Below are positions 4,037-24,848 of a DNA stretch of 33,379 nucleotides, piece after piece. Position numbers and translations under genes: made by a program. Each line of letters starts with the position of its first letter. Position 1 is the stretch's first letter. Source of the DNA: Bryobacterales bacterium (lineage in GTDB: Bacteria; Acidobacteriota; Terriglobia; Bryobacterales; Bryobacteraceae); NCBI GenBank assembly GCA_020847315.1, contig JADLCF010000240.1, positions 1-33,379 on the forward strand. The letters run 5' to 3'. The notes under the pieces were generated by a model. That model was not told the DNA's origin, did not search any database, and saw only the letters and a list, made by a program, of their open reading frames with translations.

Positions 4037-5431
4037 CTAGGCCAGTTCCTTGACTGCGGCGATGATGTCGTTCACGGCTTTCTTGCCGTCCGAGAAGAAC
4101 ATCAGAGTATTATCCGCCGCGAAAAGCGGGTTGGGAATCCCGGCGAAACCGGGGCTGAGGCTGCGCTTCACGACAACCACCGTGTGTGCTTTATCCACGT
4201 CGAGGATGGGCATGCCGGCGATAGGAGAATTGGGGTCGGTGCGCGCGAGCGGATTCACCACGTCGTTCGCGCCGATCACGATGGCAACGTCGGTTTGCGC
4301 AAAAGTGGGGTTCACCTCGTCCATTTCCTTGAGCGCTTCGTAGGGTACGTCGGCCTCGGCCAGCAGCACGTTCATGTGGCCGGGCATGCGGCCCGCCACC
4401 GGGTGAATGCCATACACGACTTCCGTACCGCGGGCTTCAAGCAATTGGGCGAGCGCCCGCACGGTGTGCTGCGCCTGGGAAACGGCAAGCCCGTAGCCGG
4501 GCACGATCACGACGCGGCGCGCATTCTCGAGCAGCATTGCAATTTCTTCGGCGGAGGTGCTCTTCACCTTGCCCGCGTAAACATCCTCGCCCTTCTCCTT
4601 GGATGCCGGGGCCGCGCCCAAGCCTCCGAACAGGACGTTCGTCAGCGAGCGGTTCATCGCCTTGCACATGATCTGCGTGAGGATGATGCCCGACGCGCCG
4701 ACGAGCGAGCCGGCGATGATCAACATGTTGTTGCTCAGGACGAAGCCGGTTGCCGCCGCGGCCAGACCCGAATAGGAGTTAAGGAGGGAGATTACGACCG
4801 GCATGTCGGCCCCGCCGATGCCGATGGTGGCAAGGATGCCAAGCACCGACGACGCGACGACCAGCACCCAATAGTAGGAGATCGATTCCGGCTGCAGCAC
4901 CACCAGGACGCAGAGCGCCACGCTCGCCAAGGCGATCAGAGCGCTCAGGAGATGTTGGCCGGGGAAGACGATGGCATTGCCGCTCATGATTTCCTGCAGC
5001 TTGGCAAACGCAACGAGGCTGCCCCAGAAGGTGACTGCGCCAATCAGGCCCGAAAGCGCCGTGGCCACCGTCATCTGGAGGTCAAAGGCCGCTCCCGCGC
5101 TTTGCACCTCGATGAGCGCCGCGCCCGCCACGAGGACCGAAGCCGCGCCGCCGAACCCGTTGAGCAGCGCGACCATCTGCGGCATGCCCGTCATCTGGAT
5201 GCGCACGGCCAATAGCCATCCGATGAGGGACCCGACGACGAGCCCCGCCAGGATCACTTCATAGCCGACAATCGCGCGGTCCAGCATCGTGGCGACGATG
5301 GCGATCAGCATGCCGATCGCGCCCAGCAGATTGCCGCGCACCGCCTTGCGCGGGTGAGAGAGGCCCTTCAGCCCGAAAATAAAGAGGGCCGAGGCGATCA
5401 GATAGGCGAAATTGATGGCAACCGGGGGCAT
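4037..5431 (-). CDS. pntB: NAD(P)(+) transhydrogenase subunit beta
   Basis: A 464-residue inner-membrane subunit of the proton-translocating transhydrogenase, which uses the proton motive force to drive hydride transfer from NADH to NADP+. About nine hydrophobic segments fill the first 260 residues (domain II). The C-terminal 180 residues form the cytoplasmic NADP(H)-binding domain III: VVIVPGYGLAVSQAQH, then HPVAGRMPGHMNVLLAEA, and IGANDVVNP. It is the last gene of the three-gene pnt operon, starting five bases after the stop of pntAB. Length and motifs are normal. Confidence 0.97.
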   Translation of the reverse strand: MPPVAINFAYLIASALFIFGLKGLSHPRKAVRGNLLGAIGMLIAIVATMLDRAIVGYEVILAGLVVGSLIGWLLAVRIQMTGMPQMVALLNGFGGAASVLVAGAALIEVQSAGAAFDLQMTVATALSGLIGAVTFWGSLVAFAKLQEIMSGNAIVFPGQHLLSALIALASVALCVLVVLQPESISYYWVLVVASSVLGILATIGIGGADMPVVISLLNSYSGLAAAATGFVLSNNMLIIAGSLVGASGIILTQIMCKAMNRSLTNVLFGGLGAAPASKEKGEDVYAGKVKSTSAEEIAMLLENARRVVIVPGYGLAVSQAQHTVRALAQLLEARGTEVVYGIHPVAGRMPGHMNVLLAEADVPYEALKEMDEVNPTFAQTDVAIVIGANDVVNPLARTDPNSPIAGMPILDVDKAHTVVVVKRSLSPGFAGIPNPLFAADNTLMFFSDGKKAVNDIIAAVKELA

Positions 5432-5436
5432 CGTCG

Positions 5437-5718
5437 TTACTTTCTCCGGAACATCGCTAGCATTCGATGGGTTACCCAGAAGCCTCCCACCACGTTGATC
5501 ATGGCGAAGACAACCGAGAGGAACCCGAGGATCGTGGTGAGGGTGGTGTGCTGGGTGCCCGCGGATAGAATCGCGCCCACCACGGTGATGCCGGAGATGG
5601 CGTTCGAGCCCGACATCAGGGGTGTGTGCAGCGTCGGCGGCACCTTATTGATCACTTCAAAACCAATGAAAATCGACAGTACGAAAATCGTGAGTGCGGC
5701 GACGAAAATTTCCATCAT
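5437..5718 (-). CDS. pntAB: NAD(P) transhydrogenase subunit alpha, part 2 (membrane piece)
   Basis: A 93-residue membrane protein corresponding to the C-terminal membrane section of the E. coli alpha subunit, encoded here as a separate gene as in Rhodospirillum rubrum and many other bacteria. It has three to four hydrophobic segments, and the conserved TLHTPLMSGSNAISGI stretch is characteristic. With PntB it forms the proton channel. Its ATG (5716-5718) overlaps the TGA of pntAA by four bases, so translation is probably coupled. The three-gene split is ordinary in this family. Confidence 0.95.
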   Translation of the reverse strand: MMEIFVAALTIFVLSIFIGFEVINKVPPTLHTPLMSGSNAISGITVVGAILSAGTQHTTLTTILGFLSVVFAMINVVGGFWVTHRMLAMFRRK

Positions 5719-6896
5719 CCCTCCTGCGCCGGCGCGCCTGCTTCCGGCAATCCCAGCAATCCGCGAACGCGCGGTTCCACGACGGCGCCGTCGCGGGTGA
5801 GTAAGGTCTCGCGAAGAATCTGGTCGTCCGCATCAAGGGCCAGTTTGCCTTCCTTCGCCAGGTGCAGCAGGAAGGTGACGATATTCTTGGCGTAGAGTTG
5901 GCTGGCGTGGTGGGGTACGGTGGATGGCAGGTTGAGCGGCCCGTGAATGGCGACGCCATGCTCGACCACGACCTCGCCCGGGCGCGTCAATTCGCAATTC
6001 CCGCCCCGCTCGGCGGCCAGATCGACGATGACGGAACCCGGCATCATCCCGCGCACCATCTCCGCCGTGACGAGCACCGGGGCCTTCCTGCCGGGGATCG
6101 CCGCCGTCGTGATGACCACATCGCACTCGGCGACGACGCGCGCCATTAACTCGCGCTGCTTGCGGTAGAAGGCTTCATCCTGGGCCTTGGCATAGCCGCC
6201 CTGGCCCTCGGCGGCCTCGGTATCGAGCGGCAACTCCACGAAACGGGCGCCGACGCTCTCGACCTGCTCTTTCACCGCCGGGCGAACGTCATAGGCTTGC
6301 ACGACCGCGCCCAGGCGGCGCGCGGTGGCGATGGCCTGCAAACCGGCCACGCCGACGCCGACAATGAACACCTTGGCCGGGGCCACGGTGCCCGCGGCGG
6401 TCATGAGCATTGGGAACATTTTCGGCAGAGCATTCGCCGCCACGAGCACGGCCTTGTAGCCAGCGACAGTGGCCATCGAGGAGAGCGCATCCATGCTTTG
6501 CGCGCGGGTGATGCGGGGCATCAATTCCATCGAAAGGGCGCAGGCTCCGGTAGCGGCGATGGCGGCGACCTCGTCGGGATTCGACAGCGGATCAAAAAAG
6601 CCGATCACGGCCTGGCCGGGCCGCAAGCGCGCCAGTTCCCCGGCGCTTGTATCCGGGTTGCTCCCCGCTCCGCGCACCTGGAACACCACTTCGGCTTCCC
6701 GCCAGAGGGCCTCCGGCGAGGGGGCAAGCCGCGCTCCCTTCTCCACGAATGCGGCGTCGGAAAACCCGGCGGCTTCTCCCGCGCCCGCTTCCACCAGCAC
6801 GTCAAAGCCCGCCTTCACGAGCGACGGGACAAGCGCGGGCACGAGCGCCACGCGGCGTTCGCCCGCATCGGTCTCCTTTGGAACACCGGCGATCAT
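5715..6896 (-). CDS. pntAA: NAD(P) transhydrogenase subunit alpha, part 1 (NAD-binding)
   Basis: A 393-residue cytoplasmic NAD(H)-binding domain I of the proton-translocating transhydrogenase, related to alanine dehydrogenase. The N-terminal GVPKETDAGERRVALVP is the family signature. The nucleotide-binding loop FIVGVGVAGLQAIATA lies near residue 173-188, followed by an acidic residue in QAYDVRPA. The mobile loop AQDEAFYRKQ is present. The ATG at 6896 is preceded by a clear GGAGGAG Shine-Dalgarno at 6906-6912. It is the first gene of pntAA-pntAB-pntB and is divergent from the dienelactone hydrolase gene with a shared 189-base upstream region. Confidence 0.97.
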   Translation of the reverse strand: MIAGVPKETDAGERRVALVPALVPSLVKAGFDVLVEAGAGEAAGFSDAAFVEKGARLAPSPEALWREAEVVFQVRGAGSNPDTSAGELARLRPGQAVIGFFDPLSNPDEVAAIAATGACALSMELMPRITRAQSMDALSSMATVAGYKAVLVAANALPKMFPMLMTAAGTVAPAKVFIVGVGVAGLQAIATARRLGAVVQAYDVRPAVKEQVESVGARFVELPLDTEAAEGQGGYAKAQDEAFYRKQRELMARVVAECDVVITTAAIPGRKAPVLVTAEMVRGMMPGSVIVDLAAERGGNCELTRPGEVVVEHGVAIHGPLNLPSTVPHHASQLYAKNIVTFLLHLAKEGKLALDADDQILRETLLTRDGAVVEPRVRGLLGLPEAGAPAQEG

Positions 6897-19852: not shown

Positions 19853-20015
19853 CGCTGCGCCGGTTGAGAATAGGTGGCGACGGTCAAGCGAACCCGATGC
19901 CGCCGCGCGCAATTAGCTGGTCCGGGTGAGACGCACGGGCGCACCGATGGAGATGGTCCCCCGGGGAAAGCTCCGGTCCCGGGCCAGTGCAATCCCGTCC
20001 GCTATCCTTGAGCTT

Positions 20016-21176
20016 ATGCACACGGTTTTGGTGAATCGCCGCGCCGCCGCGCGAGTGGAGCGGGGCCACCCTTGGATTTTCCGTTCCGATCTCGCGGGGG
20101 AACCGGATTCGCCGGCCGCCGCCGTGGTGCGCGTGCAGCTAGCCTCCGGCAAGCCCCTGGGCACGGCCCACTACAGCAGTACCTCACAAATCGCCCTTCG
20201 GATGCTGGCGGAACGGGACACGCTGATTGACGAAGCGTTTCTCTCGCAACGCATCGCCGCCGCGTTTACCCTACGCCAGCGGATTGTGCACGATTCGGAC
20301 TCCTATCGCCTGGTCTATGGCGAAGCGGACTTTCTGCCCGGCCTGGTGGTGGATCGCTATGCGGATTGCCTCGCAATCCAGACACTCAACCAGGGGATGG
20401 ATGCCCTGCAGCCGCTCGTCGTGAAGGTGCTTCGCGATCTGCTTCAGCCCCGGGCAGTCGTCGAGAAGAACGAAGCGCAAACGCGCTCACTCGAAGGGCT
20501 CCCGCTGCGATCCGACGTGGTAGACGGCACGCTCGACGGCCCGGTCGCGATTACGCTCAACGGCCTTCGTTTCGAAGTGGATCTGCTAGGCGGGCAAAAG
20601 ACGGGATTCTTTCTCGATCAACGCGAAAATTATGCCGCCATCCGGCGCTTCGGGCGCGGCCGGGCGCTTGACTGCTTCACGTATGGGGGCGGCTTCGCGC
20701 TGCATTTGGCATCGGTCTGCGAATCGGTGGAGGCCGTGGATTCCTCCGCCGGGGCCGTCGCGCGCGCTCGCCGGAATGCGGAAGAGAACGGGCTCGGCAA
20801 TGTGAGCGTCCGCGAGGCCGACGTCTTCCAACTGCTGGCCAGCTATCAAGTGGCGCGCCGCAGTTTCGAAACAATCGTTCTCGACCCCCCCGCCTTCACG
20901 AAGAGCCGCAACCGCAAGGAGGAAGCTGCGCGCGGTTACAAGGAAATCAATCTGCGGGCGCTCAAATTGCTCGCGCCGGGCGGCGTGCTGGTGAGTTGTT
21001 CCTGCTCTCACCACGTTTCAGGAGCCGAATTACTGGCCGCGATTCACGAAGCCTCGCTAGACGCACGGCGCCCGCTGCGGTTGCTCGAGACGCGCTCGCA
21101 AGCTTCCTGCCACCCCATTCGGCTGGGCGTGCCGGAGACGGAGTATCTGAAATGCTTCACTCTCGAAGCGGCGTAA
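20016..21176 (+). CDS. Class I SAM-dependent rRNA methyltransferase, RlmI-like (PUA plus methyltransferase)
   Basis: A 386-residue protein of the COG1092 type. The N-terminal about 75 residues look like a PUA RNA-binding domain (RGHPWIFRSD near 16-25). The Rossmann methyltransferase domain has ALDCFTYGGGFALHLA as the SAM-binding motif and LDPPAFTKSR near residue 290 as motif IV. E. coli RlmI makes m5C1962 in 23S rRNA, and this protein probably does a similar job. Cys residues in VSCSCSHHVS are in the expected place for m5C chemistry. The ATG at 20016 was chosen because homology starts there; an earlier in-frame ATG at 19926 would add 30 unrelated residues. Its stop is six bases from that of ileS (convergent). 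Confidence 0.9.
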   Translation: MHTVLVNRRAAARVERGHPWIFRSDLAGEPDSPAAAVVRVQLASGKPLGTAHYSSTSQIALRMLAERDTLIDEAFLSQRIAAAFTLRQRIVHDSDSYRLVYGEADFLPGLVVDRYADCLAIQTLNQGMDALQPLVVKVLRDLLQPRAVVEKNEAQTRSLEGLPLRSDVVDGTLDGPVAITLNGLRFEVDLLGGQKTGFFLDQRENYAAIRRFGRGRALDCFTYGGGFALHLASVCESVEAVDSSAGAVARARRNAEENGLGNVSVREADVFQLLASYQVARRSFETIVLDPPAFTKSRNRKEEAARGYKEINLRALKLLAPGGVLVSCSCSHHVSGAELLAAIHEASLDARRPLRLLETRSQASCHPIRLGVPETEYLKCFTLEAA

Positions 21177-21182
21177 CAACGC

Positions 21183-24100
21183 CTATTCCGGTAGCAGCGT
21201 AACGCGCAGCTTCTCGCCATCGAGATCGTATTCCCGCACCGGGTGGTTCCCGTTGCCACCATCCAGTTCCGGCGTTCCCGTCCACAGTCGCGCGCACAGC
21301 GTTTCCGCCATGAAATGCGATCGCCGCGATTCGAGCACTCGTTCCACCCGCTCCGAACCCTGCACGGCCAGGCCGATGCGCTGGGTGTACTCGAGTTCGA
21401 GTTCTTTACGCAGAGTCTGCACCCGGTTCAGCACGTCGCGGTAAAGCCCCTCGTCCACGAGTTCCTCCGAGAGTTCCGTGCGCAGAATGACCACCGCCGC
21501 GGAATCGCCCGCCGCCGCGAAGCCCTCGCGCTCCACGATCTGGATCTCGATATCTTCGCTGTCGAACGAGATCCATTCGCCGGCGACTTCGAGGCGCGCT
21601 TCGCCATTTGTTAAGATCGCCTGCCGAAGCGCGGCTGCATCGGCCCCTTCGAGGGCCTTCTTCACCGCCGGCATCAATTTGCCCACGCGAGCGCCCACGC
21701 GGCGGAAGTTGGGCTTCGCCTTATAGTGGACAAACTCGTCGGCGCTTTCGAGGAAGCGCACTTCCTTGACGTTCAGTTCATCGGCGATGAGGCTGGCGTA
21801 TGCCGACACCCTGGTCCGCAACCCTTCGTTCGCGACGACAACGGAGGCCTCAGAGAGGGGCTGCCGCACCTTAAGCTTATGGTCATTGCGCACGCGCAAG
21901 CCCAGCGAGACGATGGCGCGCACCATCGCCATCTCTTCGAGGAGACCCCGGTCAATGCGGGAGAGATCCGCTGCGGGGTAGTCACACAGGTGAACACTCT
22001 CGGGCGCCTCTGTCCCGAACGGGCGCGCCACCAAATTCTGATACAACTCTTCCGTCTGGAAGGGCGTGAAGGGCGCGGCGAGTTGGATCACCGTGGTGAG
22101 GCATTCGTAGAGCGTAGCGTAGGCGTCAAGCTTCGATGCGTCCATCCCCGCGGCCCAGAAACGGTCACGGCTTCTGCGAAGCCACCAGTTCGAGAGACCC
22201 TCGACGAATTCCGACAACTCCCGCGTGGCTTCATACGAGGCGTAATTATCCATCAACTGGGTGACCGAATCGGTCAATCGGGAGAGTTCCGAGAGGATCC
22301 AACGGTCAAGCAGCGCCCGTTCCGGCACGGGCCGGCCATGGTGTTCTTTCGGTTCAAACCCGTCGATATTGGCGTAAATCGTGAAGAACGAATACACGTT
22401 GCGCAGCTTGAGCGGGAATTCCTTTTGCAGGCCGCGCACGTTGCTCAAACTATGCCTGGTTGAGTTCCATGGAGGATTCGACGCCAGGAAAAACCAACGG
22501 AAGGCATCCGCGCCGGGCGCGGGCATCGCCGCGTTTTCCACGCGAATCCGCTCGTCCACCGGCAATCGCGGAACGGCGGCCGGCATCACGTCCAAGCCAT
22601 TGGCGTTCGGCTTCACGCACAGCCTGCGTTGCGTTTCCGCGTCGATGACTACAACGCGGCGGGGCAACTTCTTCGCGGGCTTCAGGGCCACATCCACGGT
22701 GACGCCCTCCCCCCCCGGGCAACTCAGCCTCACGGTCGCACCCGGGCTGAGGTCAAGCCCCTCCAGGTCTTCACGGGCAATGAACGCGGTACCCGCTTCG
22801 GGCTCCACGCCCACGGGCGAACCGTCTACCACCGCGAAATCCATCGCCACGCGTTCGAGAATCACCTCTGGTGGGGTGTAGTTGCCTTTCGATTTCGATT
22901 CCTTCTTCCCCTCCGCGTCCGTTACGTGGCCGAGCACGATGCAGGTCTTGAAAGGCAGCGGGTACTCGCGGACTTCCATCCCCAGCCTCTGCTGGGTTTC
23001 CTTGCGGAAGACGAGCGTGGCGATCATCATCTGCGAATAGAACCAGCCGCGCGTCTGGTCAATTGCTTCGCTGATGAAATCCGCCGGGAACGCCTCGTTA
23101 AACTCGTGCTGACCCGTGTGCGGGAAACCCCACTGGGCGAAGGGCATCGCGCCGGAATCAAACCAGCAATCGATCACCTCGCTCACCCGCCGGTAGACGC
23201 CTTCCTCGCCGGGAACGGTGAAGGTTACCTTATCGATCCAAGGCTTATGCACCATCAAGTGCTCGGACAGCGTGGGATCGGCCGCCTTTGCTTCATCCCA
23301 GTGGGCGAAGGCTTCGGGGTTATACGAAAGGATCTCCTTGACGCTGGCTGGCGCGAGCATGGCGCCGCTCACGTCATTCACCCAGACATTGAGCGGCGTG
23401 CCCCAGTATCGCTCGCGAGAGAGAGCCCAATCGACGTTGTTATTGAGGAAGTCGCCGAAGCGGCCGTCCTTGATGTGCTCCGGCAACCAATGAAAGGTCT
23501 GGTTGTTGGCCTTGGCCTCATCAAGCATCGCCGTGGTGCGGATGACCCACGTGGGGCGCGCCATCTGGATGAGGGGATCGTCGTCCGCCCGCCAGCAATA
23601 GGGATACTCGTGGCGATAGGTTTCCCGGTGAACGAGCACGCCGCGTTCCCGCATGTCATGGATCAGGTCGCGGTCCGCCTCCTTCACCCATACGCCCCGA
23701 TACTTGGGGAAATCTTCGTTGAAGCTGCCATCGGGCGCCACCGCGCAGAGCAACGGCACACTCAATGGGTCCTTGTACGTCTGCACGAGGGCGCGGTGCA
23801 GGTCATGATCCACCTCGCCGAACGCCGAAGCGATGTGCACGATGCCCGTGCCGGAATCGAGTTCCACGAAATCGGCCGGTAATACTTTCCAAAAGAGCGG
23901 CGTGGTTCCGCCGGCCGCCAGTTCCACCGCGCTCGCGCCATAGCGATCCCAATAGATATCGAACGGAGGCCGGTATGTGCGTCCGAGCAATTCCTTGCCC
24001 TTGAACTCGCGCAGAACCGGGAGCGTCTCGCCGGTCTTCTGGGCGATCTGCTCCCGCAGCGCCGCGGCCAGCACCAGTTTCCCGTGGCTGCTTTCCACCT

Positions 24101-24848
24101 CGACGTAATCGACATCCGCGCCTACGGCCGCGTACATGTTCGAGGGCAGCGTCCACGGGGTGGTGGTCCAGATGAGGAGCGCGGAATCCGGTGTATCCGT
24201 GAAGGGGAAGGCCACATAGACGGAGGGGTCATCCACCGTCTTATAGTTCAGGCCGACCTCGGCGGAAGAGAGGGCTGTACCGCCTTGCGGCCACCACCAG
24301 ATCACCTTGTGGCCGCGGTAGAGCAACCCGGCCTTGAAAAGCTCGCTTAGTGCCCACCAGACGCTCTCGATGTAGCTCTTGTGGTAAGTGACGTAGGCGT
24401 CCTCAAGGTTCACCCAGAAGCCGATCTTCTCGGTGAGCCTTTCCCACTCGTTGGTATAGCGAAAGACGCTTTCAATGCAGCGCTTCACAAACGCCTCGAC
24501 GCCGTATTCTTCGATGGCCGCCTTGCCGTGAATCCCCAGTTCCTTCTCGACTTCCACTTCCACGGGCAGGCCGTGCGTATCCCAGCCGGCCTTGCGCGGC
24601 ACGTGGTAACCGCGCATGGTGCGGTAGCGGGGAAACAGGTCCTTGATCACGCGCGTCAGCACGTGCCCGTTGTGGGGCAGGCCGTTCGCGGTGGGCGGAC
24701 CTTCGTAAAAAACGAACGGTTTGCCTTCTTTGCGAAGCAGGAGGCTCTTCTCAAAAATTCCGTGCTCTTTCCAGAATTGAAGGATCTCCGCTTCCACCTC
24801 GGGAAACGGCACAAGGGTCTCGGCTTTCAGGAACTTGGGTTCAGGCAT
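21183..24848 (-). CDS. ileS: Isoleucyl-tRNA synthetase, long eukaryote-like form with an unusual insertion
   Basis: A 1221-residue class I synthetase that charges tRNA-Ile. The HIGH motif reads H59-N-G-H62 in PPTANGLPHNGHVLT. The editing domain (CP1) follows, with GWDTHGLPVE and the HIASAFGEVDHDL type signature. The KMSKS motif reads K649-E-S-K-S653 followed by KGN. The sequence resembles the longer bacterial form related to eukaryotic cytosolic IleRS rather than the E. coli form. Between KGN656 and the GADAFRWFF helix (779) there are about 120 residues instead of about 14, making this protein longer than usual. The anticodon-binding domain (RSRDRFWAAG) and a C-terminal domain are complete. 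ATG at 24848. Confidence 0.95.
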   Translation of the reverse strand: MPEPKFLKAETLVPFPEVEAEILQFWKEHGIFEKSLLLRKEGKPFVFYEGPPTANGLPHNGHVLTRVIKDLFPRYRTMRGYHVPRKAGWDTHGLPVEVEVEKELGIHGKAAIEEYGVEAFVKRCIESVFRYTNEWERLTEKIGFWVNLEDAYVTYHKSYIESVWWALSELFKAGLLYRGHKVIWWWPQGGTALSSAEVGLNYKTVDDPSVYVAFPFTDTPDSALLIWTTTPWTLPSNMYAAVGADVDYVEVESSHGKLVLAAALREQIAQKTGETLPVLREFKGKELLGRTYRPPFDIYWDRYGASAVELAAGGTTPLFWKVLPADFVELDSGTGIVHIASAFGEVDHDLHRALVQTYKDPLSVPLLCAVAPDGSFNEDFPKYRGVWVKEADRDLIHDMRERGVLVHRETYRHEYPYCWRADDDPLIQMARPTWVIRTTAMLDEAKANNQTFHWLPEHIKDGRFGDFLNNNVDWALSRERYWGTPLNVWVNDVSGAMLAPASVKEILSYNPEAFAHWDEAKAADPTLSEHLMVHKPWIDKVTFTVPGEEGVYRRVSEVIDCWFDSGAMPFAQWGFPHTGQHEFNEAFPADFISEAIDQTRGWFYSQMMIATLVFRKETQQRLGMEVREYPLPFKTCIVLGHVTDAEGKKESKSKGNYTPPEVILERVAMDFAVVDGSPVGVEPEAGTAFIAREDLEGLDLSPGATVRLSCPGGEGVTVDVALKPAKKLPRRVVVIDAETQRRLCVKPNANGLDVMPAAVPRLPVDERIRVENAAMPAPGADAFRWFFLASNPPWNSTRHSLSNVRGLQKEFPLKLRNVYSFFTIYANIDGFEPKEHHGRPVPERALLDRWILSELSRLTDSVTQLMDNYASYEATRELSEFVEGLSNWWLRRSRDRFWAAGMDASKLDAYATLYECLTTVIQLAAPFTPFQTEELYQNLVARPFGTEAPESVHLCDYPAADLSRIDRGLLEEMAMVRAIVSLGLRVRNDHKLKVRQPLSEASVVVANEGLRTRVSAYASLIADELNVKEVRFLESADEFVHYKAKPNFRRVGARVGKLMPAVKKALEGADAAALRQAILTNGEARLEVAGEWISFDSEDIEIQIVEREGFAAAGDSAAVVILRTELSEELVDEGLYRDVLNRVQTLRKELELEYTQRIGLAVQGSERVERVLESRRSHFMAETLCARLWTGTPELDGGNGNHPVREYDLDGEKLRVTLLPE

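Follow-up and report, generated by a model that had tools for sequence, protein, structure and literature searches.

Few signatures of class I synthetases are as conserved as the KMSKS motif. Among the described systems close to the locus analyzed here, two belong to leucyl-tRNA synthetase (LeuRS). One is AgnB2, a LeuRS that gives self-immunity to a biocontrol Agrobacterium: the Met of KMSKS is Gln573, which forms a hydrogen bond to Thr581 at +8, and the loop is shifted; sensitive enzymes have a hydrophobic residue at the position of Thr581 (PMC5059758). The other is the leucine-specific (LS) domain, found N-terminal to KMSKS and probably derived from a zinc ribbon (PMC6588880), for which a role in supporting the mobile KMSKS loop and in guiding tRNA has been described (PMC5059758). 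The locus described below encodes an isoleucyl-tRNA synthetase (IleRS) that has a KESKS signature, a Thr at +8 and, just after this segment, a predicted double-psi beta-barrel (DPBB). Its features within the window (the whole stretch of DNA that was analyzed, 33,379 nucleotides) are as follows.

21183..24848, minus strand: ileS, isoleucyl-tRNA synthetase, IleRS2-like, 1221 aa (TIGR00392, PF00133, PF08264, PF19302 and PDB match).
24663..24674, minus strand: HXGH signature as HNGH, canonical (sequence; invariant in the alignment).
22890..22904, minus strand: KMSKS signature as KESKS, aa 649–653 (K, E, S and K of KESK invariant in 63 rows).
22875..22877, minus strand: Thr658, eight residues past the Glu of KESKS (Glu/Thr pair in related sequences).
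22521..22859, minus strand: predicted double-psi beta-barrel insert, about aa 664–776 (AlphaFold2 pLDDT, VIA-align and homologous inserts).
22494..22514, minus strand: GADAFRW at aa 779, with which the segment following the insert begins (sequence; the PDB match restarts here).

The frame is open throughout, and its 1221 aa correspond to a full-length IleRS. Although the canonical KMSKS is absent, the product passes the TIGR00392 family cut-off (783.5 bits against 621.4), and it contains the Pfam domains PF00133, PF08264 and PF19302. Its top PDB match is the IleRS2 of Priestia megaterium (8c8v, 831 bits), with Thermus IleRS (1ile) also among the best, and far behind these stand 1ffy (260.8 bits) and 8c9e (245.9 bits), which we take to be IleRS1 chains, consistent with PMC10485003. 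Judged from its sequence, the window enzyme is of the eukaryote-like IleRS2 type, and the IleRS1 of family neighbors is a gene type separate from it. The HXGH signature is conserved, with H46, N47, G48 and H49 invariant in 49 aligned rows. The enzyme belongs to the IleRS family, as a variant set apart by its KESKS/Thr pair and its DPBB. The neighboring gene at 19926–21176 (plus strand) encodes a PUA and SAM-methyltransferase protein of RlmI-like composition and is convergent with ileS, with 6 bases between its end and the ileS stop codon. Elsewhere in the window, at 4037–6896 (minus strand), a PNTB gene (pyridine nucleotide transhydrogenase beta) adjoins a gene of the alanine dehydrogenase/PNT alpha type.

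The initial annotation had placed KESKSKGN at residues 649–656 and GADAFRW at residue 779, and had read the stretch between them as an insertion of about 110 residues after the KMSKS loop. Both positions are correct in the 1221-aa frame, and the interval from GN to GAD is 122 residues compared with 11 in insert-less relatives, which leaves ~111 residues extra in the window enzyme. Alignment to other IleRS enzymes, which the same annotation had proposed, also marks the insertion: matches to TIGR00392 and to PDB IleRS chains, including that from Thermus, stop at about residues 661–670 and restart at residue 779. A sequencing error, which had been named as a possible objection, or a frameshift can be dismissed: many genomes conserve the stretch as an open frame, with relatives at at least 227 loci, and in three further members of the genus it is stop-free and 94, 81 and 78% identical. 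An intein or intron seems unlikely, given the predicted DPBB fold, and splice-junction residues were not seen by eye. Known inteins are also longer than this insert.

The insert is very probably a complete DPBB, located at the turn where the post-KMSKS segment passes into GAD(A/L)xRW; the IleRS2 enzymes that carry it form part of a clade with KESKS and Thr at +8. AlphaFold2 prediction on 63 aligned insert regions gave pLDDT block means of 84–95 over residues 31–130 of 161 (aa 670–769), and within this range six strands and short helices were predicted. The first Foldseek matches of the model were the DPBB isolated from a VCP-like ATPase (7dg9; E 5.8e-6, TM-score by target 0.76) and designed DPBBs, and VIA-align superposed it on the N-domain of p97/CDC48 (5epp) with a Z of 14.4 and an rmsd of 1.5 over 87 aligned residues. 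In a 599-residue context the insert stayed confident, while the linkers before (residues 225–251) and after it (363–394) fell below a pLDDT of 50, with a pTM of 0.41. The insert is thus predicted to fold on its own, as the initial annotation had suggested examining by structure prediction, with low-confidence hinges at both ends; the model leaves its placement relative to the active site unfixed. The initial interpretation, a small domain rich in beta strands at a site sensitive for catalysis, is supported by these models, which predict a DPBB adjoining the KMSKS-loop segment.

Sequence comparisons agree with this fold. Inserts of an acidobacterial family (f8), which are of a short type, matched DPBB chains in the PDB (7di0, E 0.0014; 7dg9, E 0.038) and the Pfam families CDC48_N (E 9.8e-5) and MazE_antitoxin (E 1.3e-4); for CDC48_N (PF02359), the first short-type member scored 21.6 bits, below the gathering score of 35.1. 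A match to Molydop_binding was found in 12 of the 63 long-type insert regions (best E 5.1e-6). With the window's insert alone, no Pfam family was matched, including Molydop_binding (PF01568, gathering score 26.8 bits), and a PDB profile search with the window-type insert returned nothing relevant, with one match at E 0.77.

The replacement of the usual Met by Glu, also pointed out initially, is common to the whole clade sampled. Thr stands at +8 from the Glu in 137 of 138 distinct KESK contexts, which are related sequences rather than independent events, and the sole exception (L190) has Val. KMSKS-type IleRS enzymes have V, I or L at the position of the Thr (seven sequences: L152–L154 and L212–L215), and 16 IleRS1 of neighboring genera, with AMSKS-type motifs, have I or V. 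Three insert-less relatives with the usual spacing of 11 residues (L162, L209 and L211) nevertheless carry KESKS and the Thr, which rules out a strict coupling of the Glu to the insert. Both features named in the initial reading are real; the Glu is the wider of the two, and they are not strictly tied. The parallel with AgnB2 is at the level of sequence, and from this analogy we infer a Glu–Thr contact in the window-type IleRS. As a separate observation, another unusual signature occurs in this family: the IleRS1 enzymes read from further genera of the family and of the order (L027–L042) have Ala for the first Lys of KMSKS in 16 of 16 cases (AMSKS, with one AMHKS).

All inserts lie at the same insertion point, with GN-to-GAD lengths of 89–136 residues overall, and they fall into three sub-types. 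A long type (116–136 residues, 113 in one) occurs in Myxococcota and in Acidobacteriota of this order, an f8 type (99–102 residues) in other Acidobacteriota, and a short type (89–101 residues) in relatives from the phylum of Sorangium; by profile comparison the three are homologous (hhalign E 9e-13, 2.1e-8 and 2.5e-8). In a quick tree of 68 rows, from which the insert was cut out and L212 left out, and whose outgroup consisted of only three KMSKS-type IleRS2 rows, each sub-type formed one group and the insert-less clade stood beside the long-insert clade (SH-aLRT 93). Neither a single clade of all 62 insert-bearing rows (AU p 0.077) nor one clade of the short-insert rows (AU p 0.156) was rejected. 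The insert may have been gained once and lost once, gained once alone, or gained several times.

For the insert, dN/dS was below 1 in eight of eight pairs (0.04–0.60) and exceeded that of the catalytic part in six of the eight, dS being near saturation in several pairs. Core positions are conserved, and an Arg-Arg and an Asp are invariant in 63 rows. The fast change in most pairs, together with the three KESKS relatives without the insert, indicates that some lineages can do without the insert in catalysis. One could regard it as a neutral elaboration, in which a surface turn that tolerates insertions took up a barrel and kept it since it folds well, with no task of its own. The fast divergence, the wide range of GN-to-GAD lengths (89–136 residues) and the three insert-less relatives fit such a history, but the insert has been kept in two phyla with its invariant residues, and dN/dS is below 1 in every pair, although this would be expected of any folded domain. 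We consider neutral elaboration distinctly improbable.

The mean net charge is −3.7 for 31 long inserts, −3.6 for eight f8 inserts and −1.2 for 23 short inserts. This negative charge makes a simple contact with the tRNA backbone through a basic patch less likely. It bears also on a second alternative, in which the DPBB is a docking module that binds another protein or the same enzyme in oligomers, like the p97 N-domain with its adaptors or the appended domains of eukaryotic synthetases, any effect on the loop being incidental. An acidic, fast-evolving surface, hinges at both ends and a nearest fold that is the adaptor-binding N-domain of p97/CDC48 all speak for docking, as does the existence of insert-less KESKS relatives, in which catalysis is possible without the DPBB. 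Yet the KMSKS loop would be an odd site for a mere tag, and likeness of fold shows no function. Docking fits the data about as well as a role at the catalytic loop; taken as a whole, we regard it as rather unlikely.

A scan of genome contigs found relatives of the enzyme at at least 227 loci, and the composition is known for the best 80 of the 227: these are mostly Myxococcota (Myxococcus, Corallococcus, Sorangium, Minicystis and Polyangiaceae MAGs), with some Acidobacteriota. The initial annotation had allowed that the insertion might be standard in a large, already described IleRS clade. The insertion is indeed standard in a large clade, made up of Myxococcota and some Acidobacteriota, rather than peculiar to this genome; a published description of the clade was not found in the literature searched. 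Among the nearest relatives, the insert stretch is present in 18 of 41 genomes, that of the window included. Within the genus 4 of 5 genomes have it, and the sister family f3 has it in 14 of 14, but it is absent from the 20 genomes of the family's remaining genera and from the 2 genomes of a third family; the genus member without the insert enzyme is a genome that is 74% complete. A broader sample of Acidobacteriota yielded it in 11 of 396 genomes, namely that of the window and ten others, all in family f8. The enzyme was found in 68 of 195 genomes sampled from the phylum of M. xanthus, one of the 68 being insert-less, and in 48 of 188 from that of Sorangium, where the 48 comprise 23 long inserts (sorted by E-value), 23 short and 2 insert-less. 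The phylum of a MAG labeled Gammaproteobacteria (Pseudomonadota) gave 1 of 299, namely that MAG, which had been used as the center of the sample. On viral contigs, a search with a degenerate pattern for KESK..GNYTPP had no matches. Insert-type IleRS is also carried by Comamonas sp. KCTC 72670 (L074) and Gammaproteobacteria SG8_30 (L110); the Comamonas label looks wrong, as the genome fell in the Myxococcaceae sample, and SG8_30 may be mis-binned.

A second IleRS was not found in the 14 of 14 f3 genomes or the 4 genus genomes that carry the insert enzyme, which shows that a cell can rely on it as its sole IleRS. In the remaining genera of the family, 17 of 20 genomes have an IleRS1-type gene above the cut-off and the other three have none. 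Among 59 Myxococcaceae genomes, 28 have the insert enzyme: it is accompanied by an IleRS1 in 24 of the 28 and by a divergent homologue below the cut-off in two, and in the last two nothing else was seen. In two Myxococcus relatives (G545 and G547), an IleRS homologue of 812–817 aa that scores 371–393 bits, below the family cut-off, is found as a divergent paralogue beside the DPBB-bearing IleRS.

The 24 of 28 Myxococcaceae genomes that keep IleRS1 as well, and the patchy spread among genera of the family, invite a further explanation, namely antibiotic tolerance: the KESKS/Thr pair, with the DPBB in some lineages, would hold the loop such that adenylate-mimic inhibitors of IleRS bind badly, and the spread and duplication of the gene would follow from this. 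AgnB2 offers a precedent, as a self-immunity LeuRS with Met changed to Gln at the same place, Thr at +8 and a shifted loop (PMC5059758), and IleRS2 as a type is reported to resist mupirocin through a closed KMSKS loop (PMC10485003). Against this, the A/GXHH hyper-resistance motif is absent from the window enzyme, which has HNGH at the HXGH site, and its scores with the MupA and MupB NCBIfam models (775.6 and 778.1 bits) do not reach the cut-off of 1900. The enzyme is, moreover, the only IleRS found in the acidobacterial carriers. We hold tolerance to be quite improbable as the explanation.

We favor, tentatively and at somewhat less than an even chance for the statement as a whole, mechanism included, that the insert is a rigid, hinged DPBB on the catalytic loop that tunes the motion of the KMSKS loop, alongside a Glu–Thr contact, in an enzyme of ordinary isoleucylation. 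In such a mechanism, the DPBB would be a rigid module, hinged where it joins the catalytic loop, and would buttress the KMSKS loop in a manner comparable to the leucine-specific domain, thereby tuning its opening and closing in adenylate formation and in the entry of the tRNA 3' end. A side-chain contact between the Glu and the Thr would shift the resting position of the loop, as the contact between Gln573 and Thr581 may do in AgnB2. The enzyme would perform ordinary cellular isoleucylation, and it is the only IleRS found in its carriers among Acidobacteriota of this order. The precedent of the LS domain, together with the flexible attachment just past the catalytic loop, modestly favors buttressing of the loop over docking. 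Against it stand the acidic charge and fast divergence of the insert, which suit docking too, and the insert-less KESKS relatives, whose catalysis has no need of a barrel. A more speculative proposal, to which we give little credence, combines these elements: the KESKS IleRS would be a distinct type in which the Glu/Thr pair locks the loop in a shifted rest state and the captured DPBB is an external handle, giving tolerance to adenylate mimics and gating via the barrel, a solution that AgnB2 would have reached independently in LeuRS.

For the insert, for KESKS in a synthetase and for a double-psi barrel within a synthetase, no paper was found among the matches listed in open-licence full text, which is weak evidence of absence. 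As far as the literature searched goes, a DPBB beside KMSKS is an unreported domain architecture of class I synthetases. Throughout this clade the Met of KMSKS has been swapped and its replacement paired with a Thr, and most members hang a barrel on the loop. The insert-less relatives are natural controls for how KMSKS dynamics are tuned, and the clade gives a test of whether shifting the loop is a repeated route to inhibitor tolerance.

Compared with known IleRS2 enzymes (8c8v and Thermus 1ile), the window enzyme aligns end to end in the catalytic core, the CP1 editing domain and the anticodon-binding domain and shares the canonical HXGH, but it differs by KESKS in place of KMSKS, by the Thr at +8 and by a ~111-residue predicted DPBB that is missing from the solved chains. 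With AgnB2 of Agrobacterium radiobacter K84 (KQSKS and Thr) it shares a polar residue for the KMSKS Met and a Thr eight residues on; AgnB2, however, is a LeuRS with Gln rather than Glu and has no extra loop domain (PMC5059758), whereas here an IleRS has gained one. The N-terminal DPBB of p97/CDC48 and other DPBBs (CDC48_N, Molydop_binding) have the predicted fold of the insert, and the sequence matches to them are weak but consistent; here, by contrast, the barrel would be an internal domain of a synthetase, not part of an ATPase or oxidoreductase, and Pfam gathering scores were not reached where bits were given. As in LeuRS with its LS domain, a small, flexibly linked domain adjoins the KMSKS loop in a class Ia enzyme and is missing in some relatives. 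The LS domain, however, precedes KMSKS and probably derives from a zinc ribbon (PMC6588880), whereas the domain described here lies C-terminal to KESKS and is predicted to be a DPBB.
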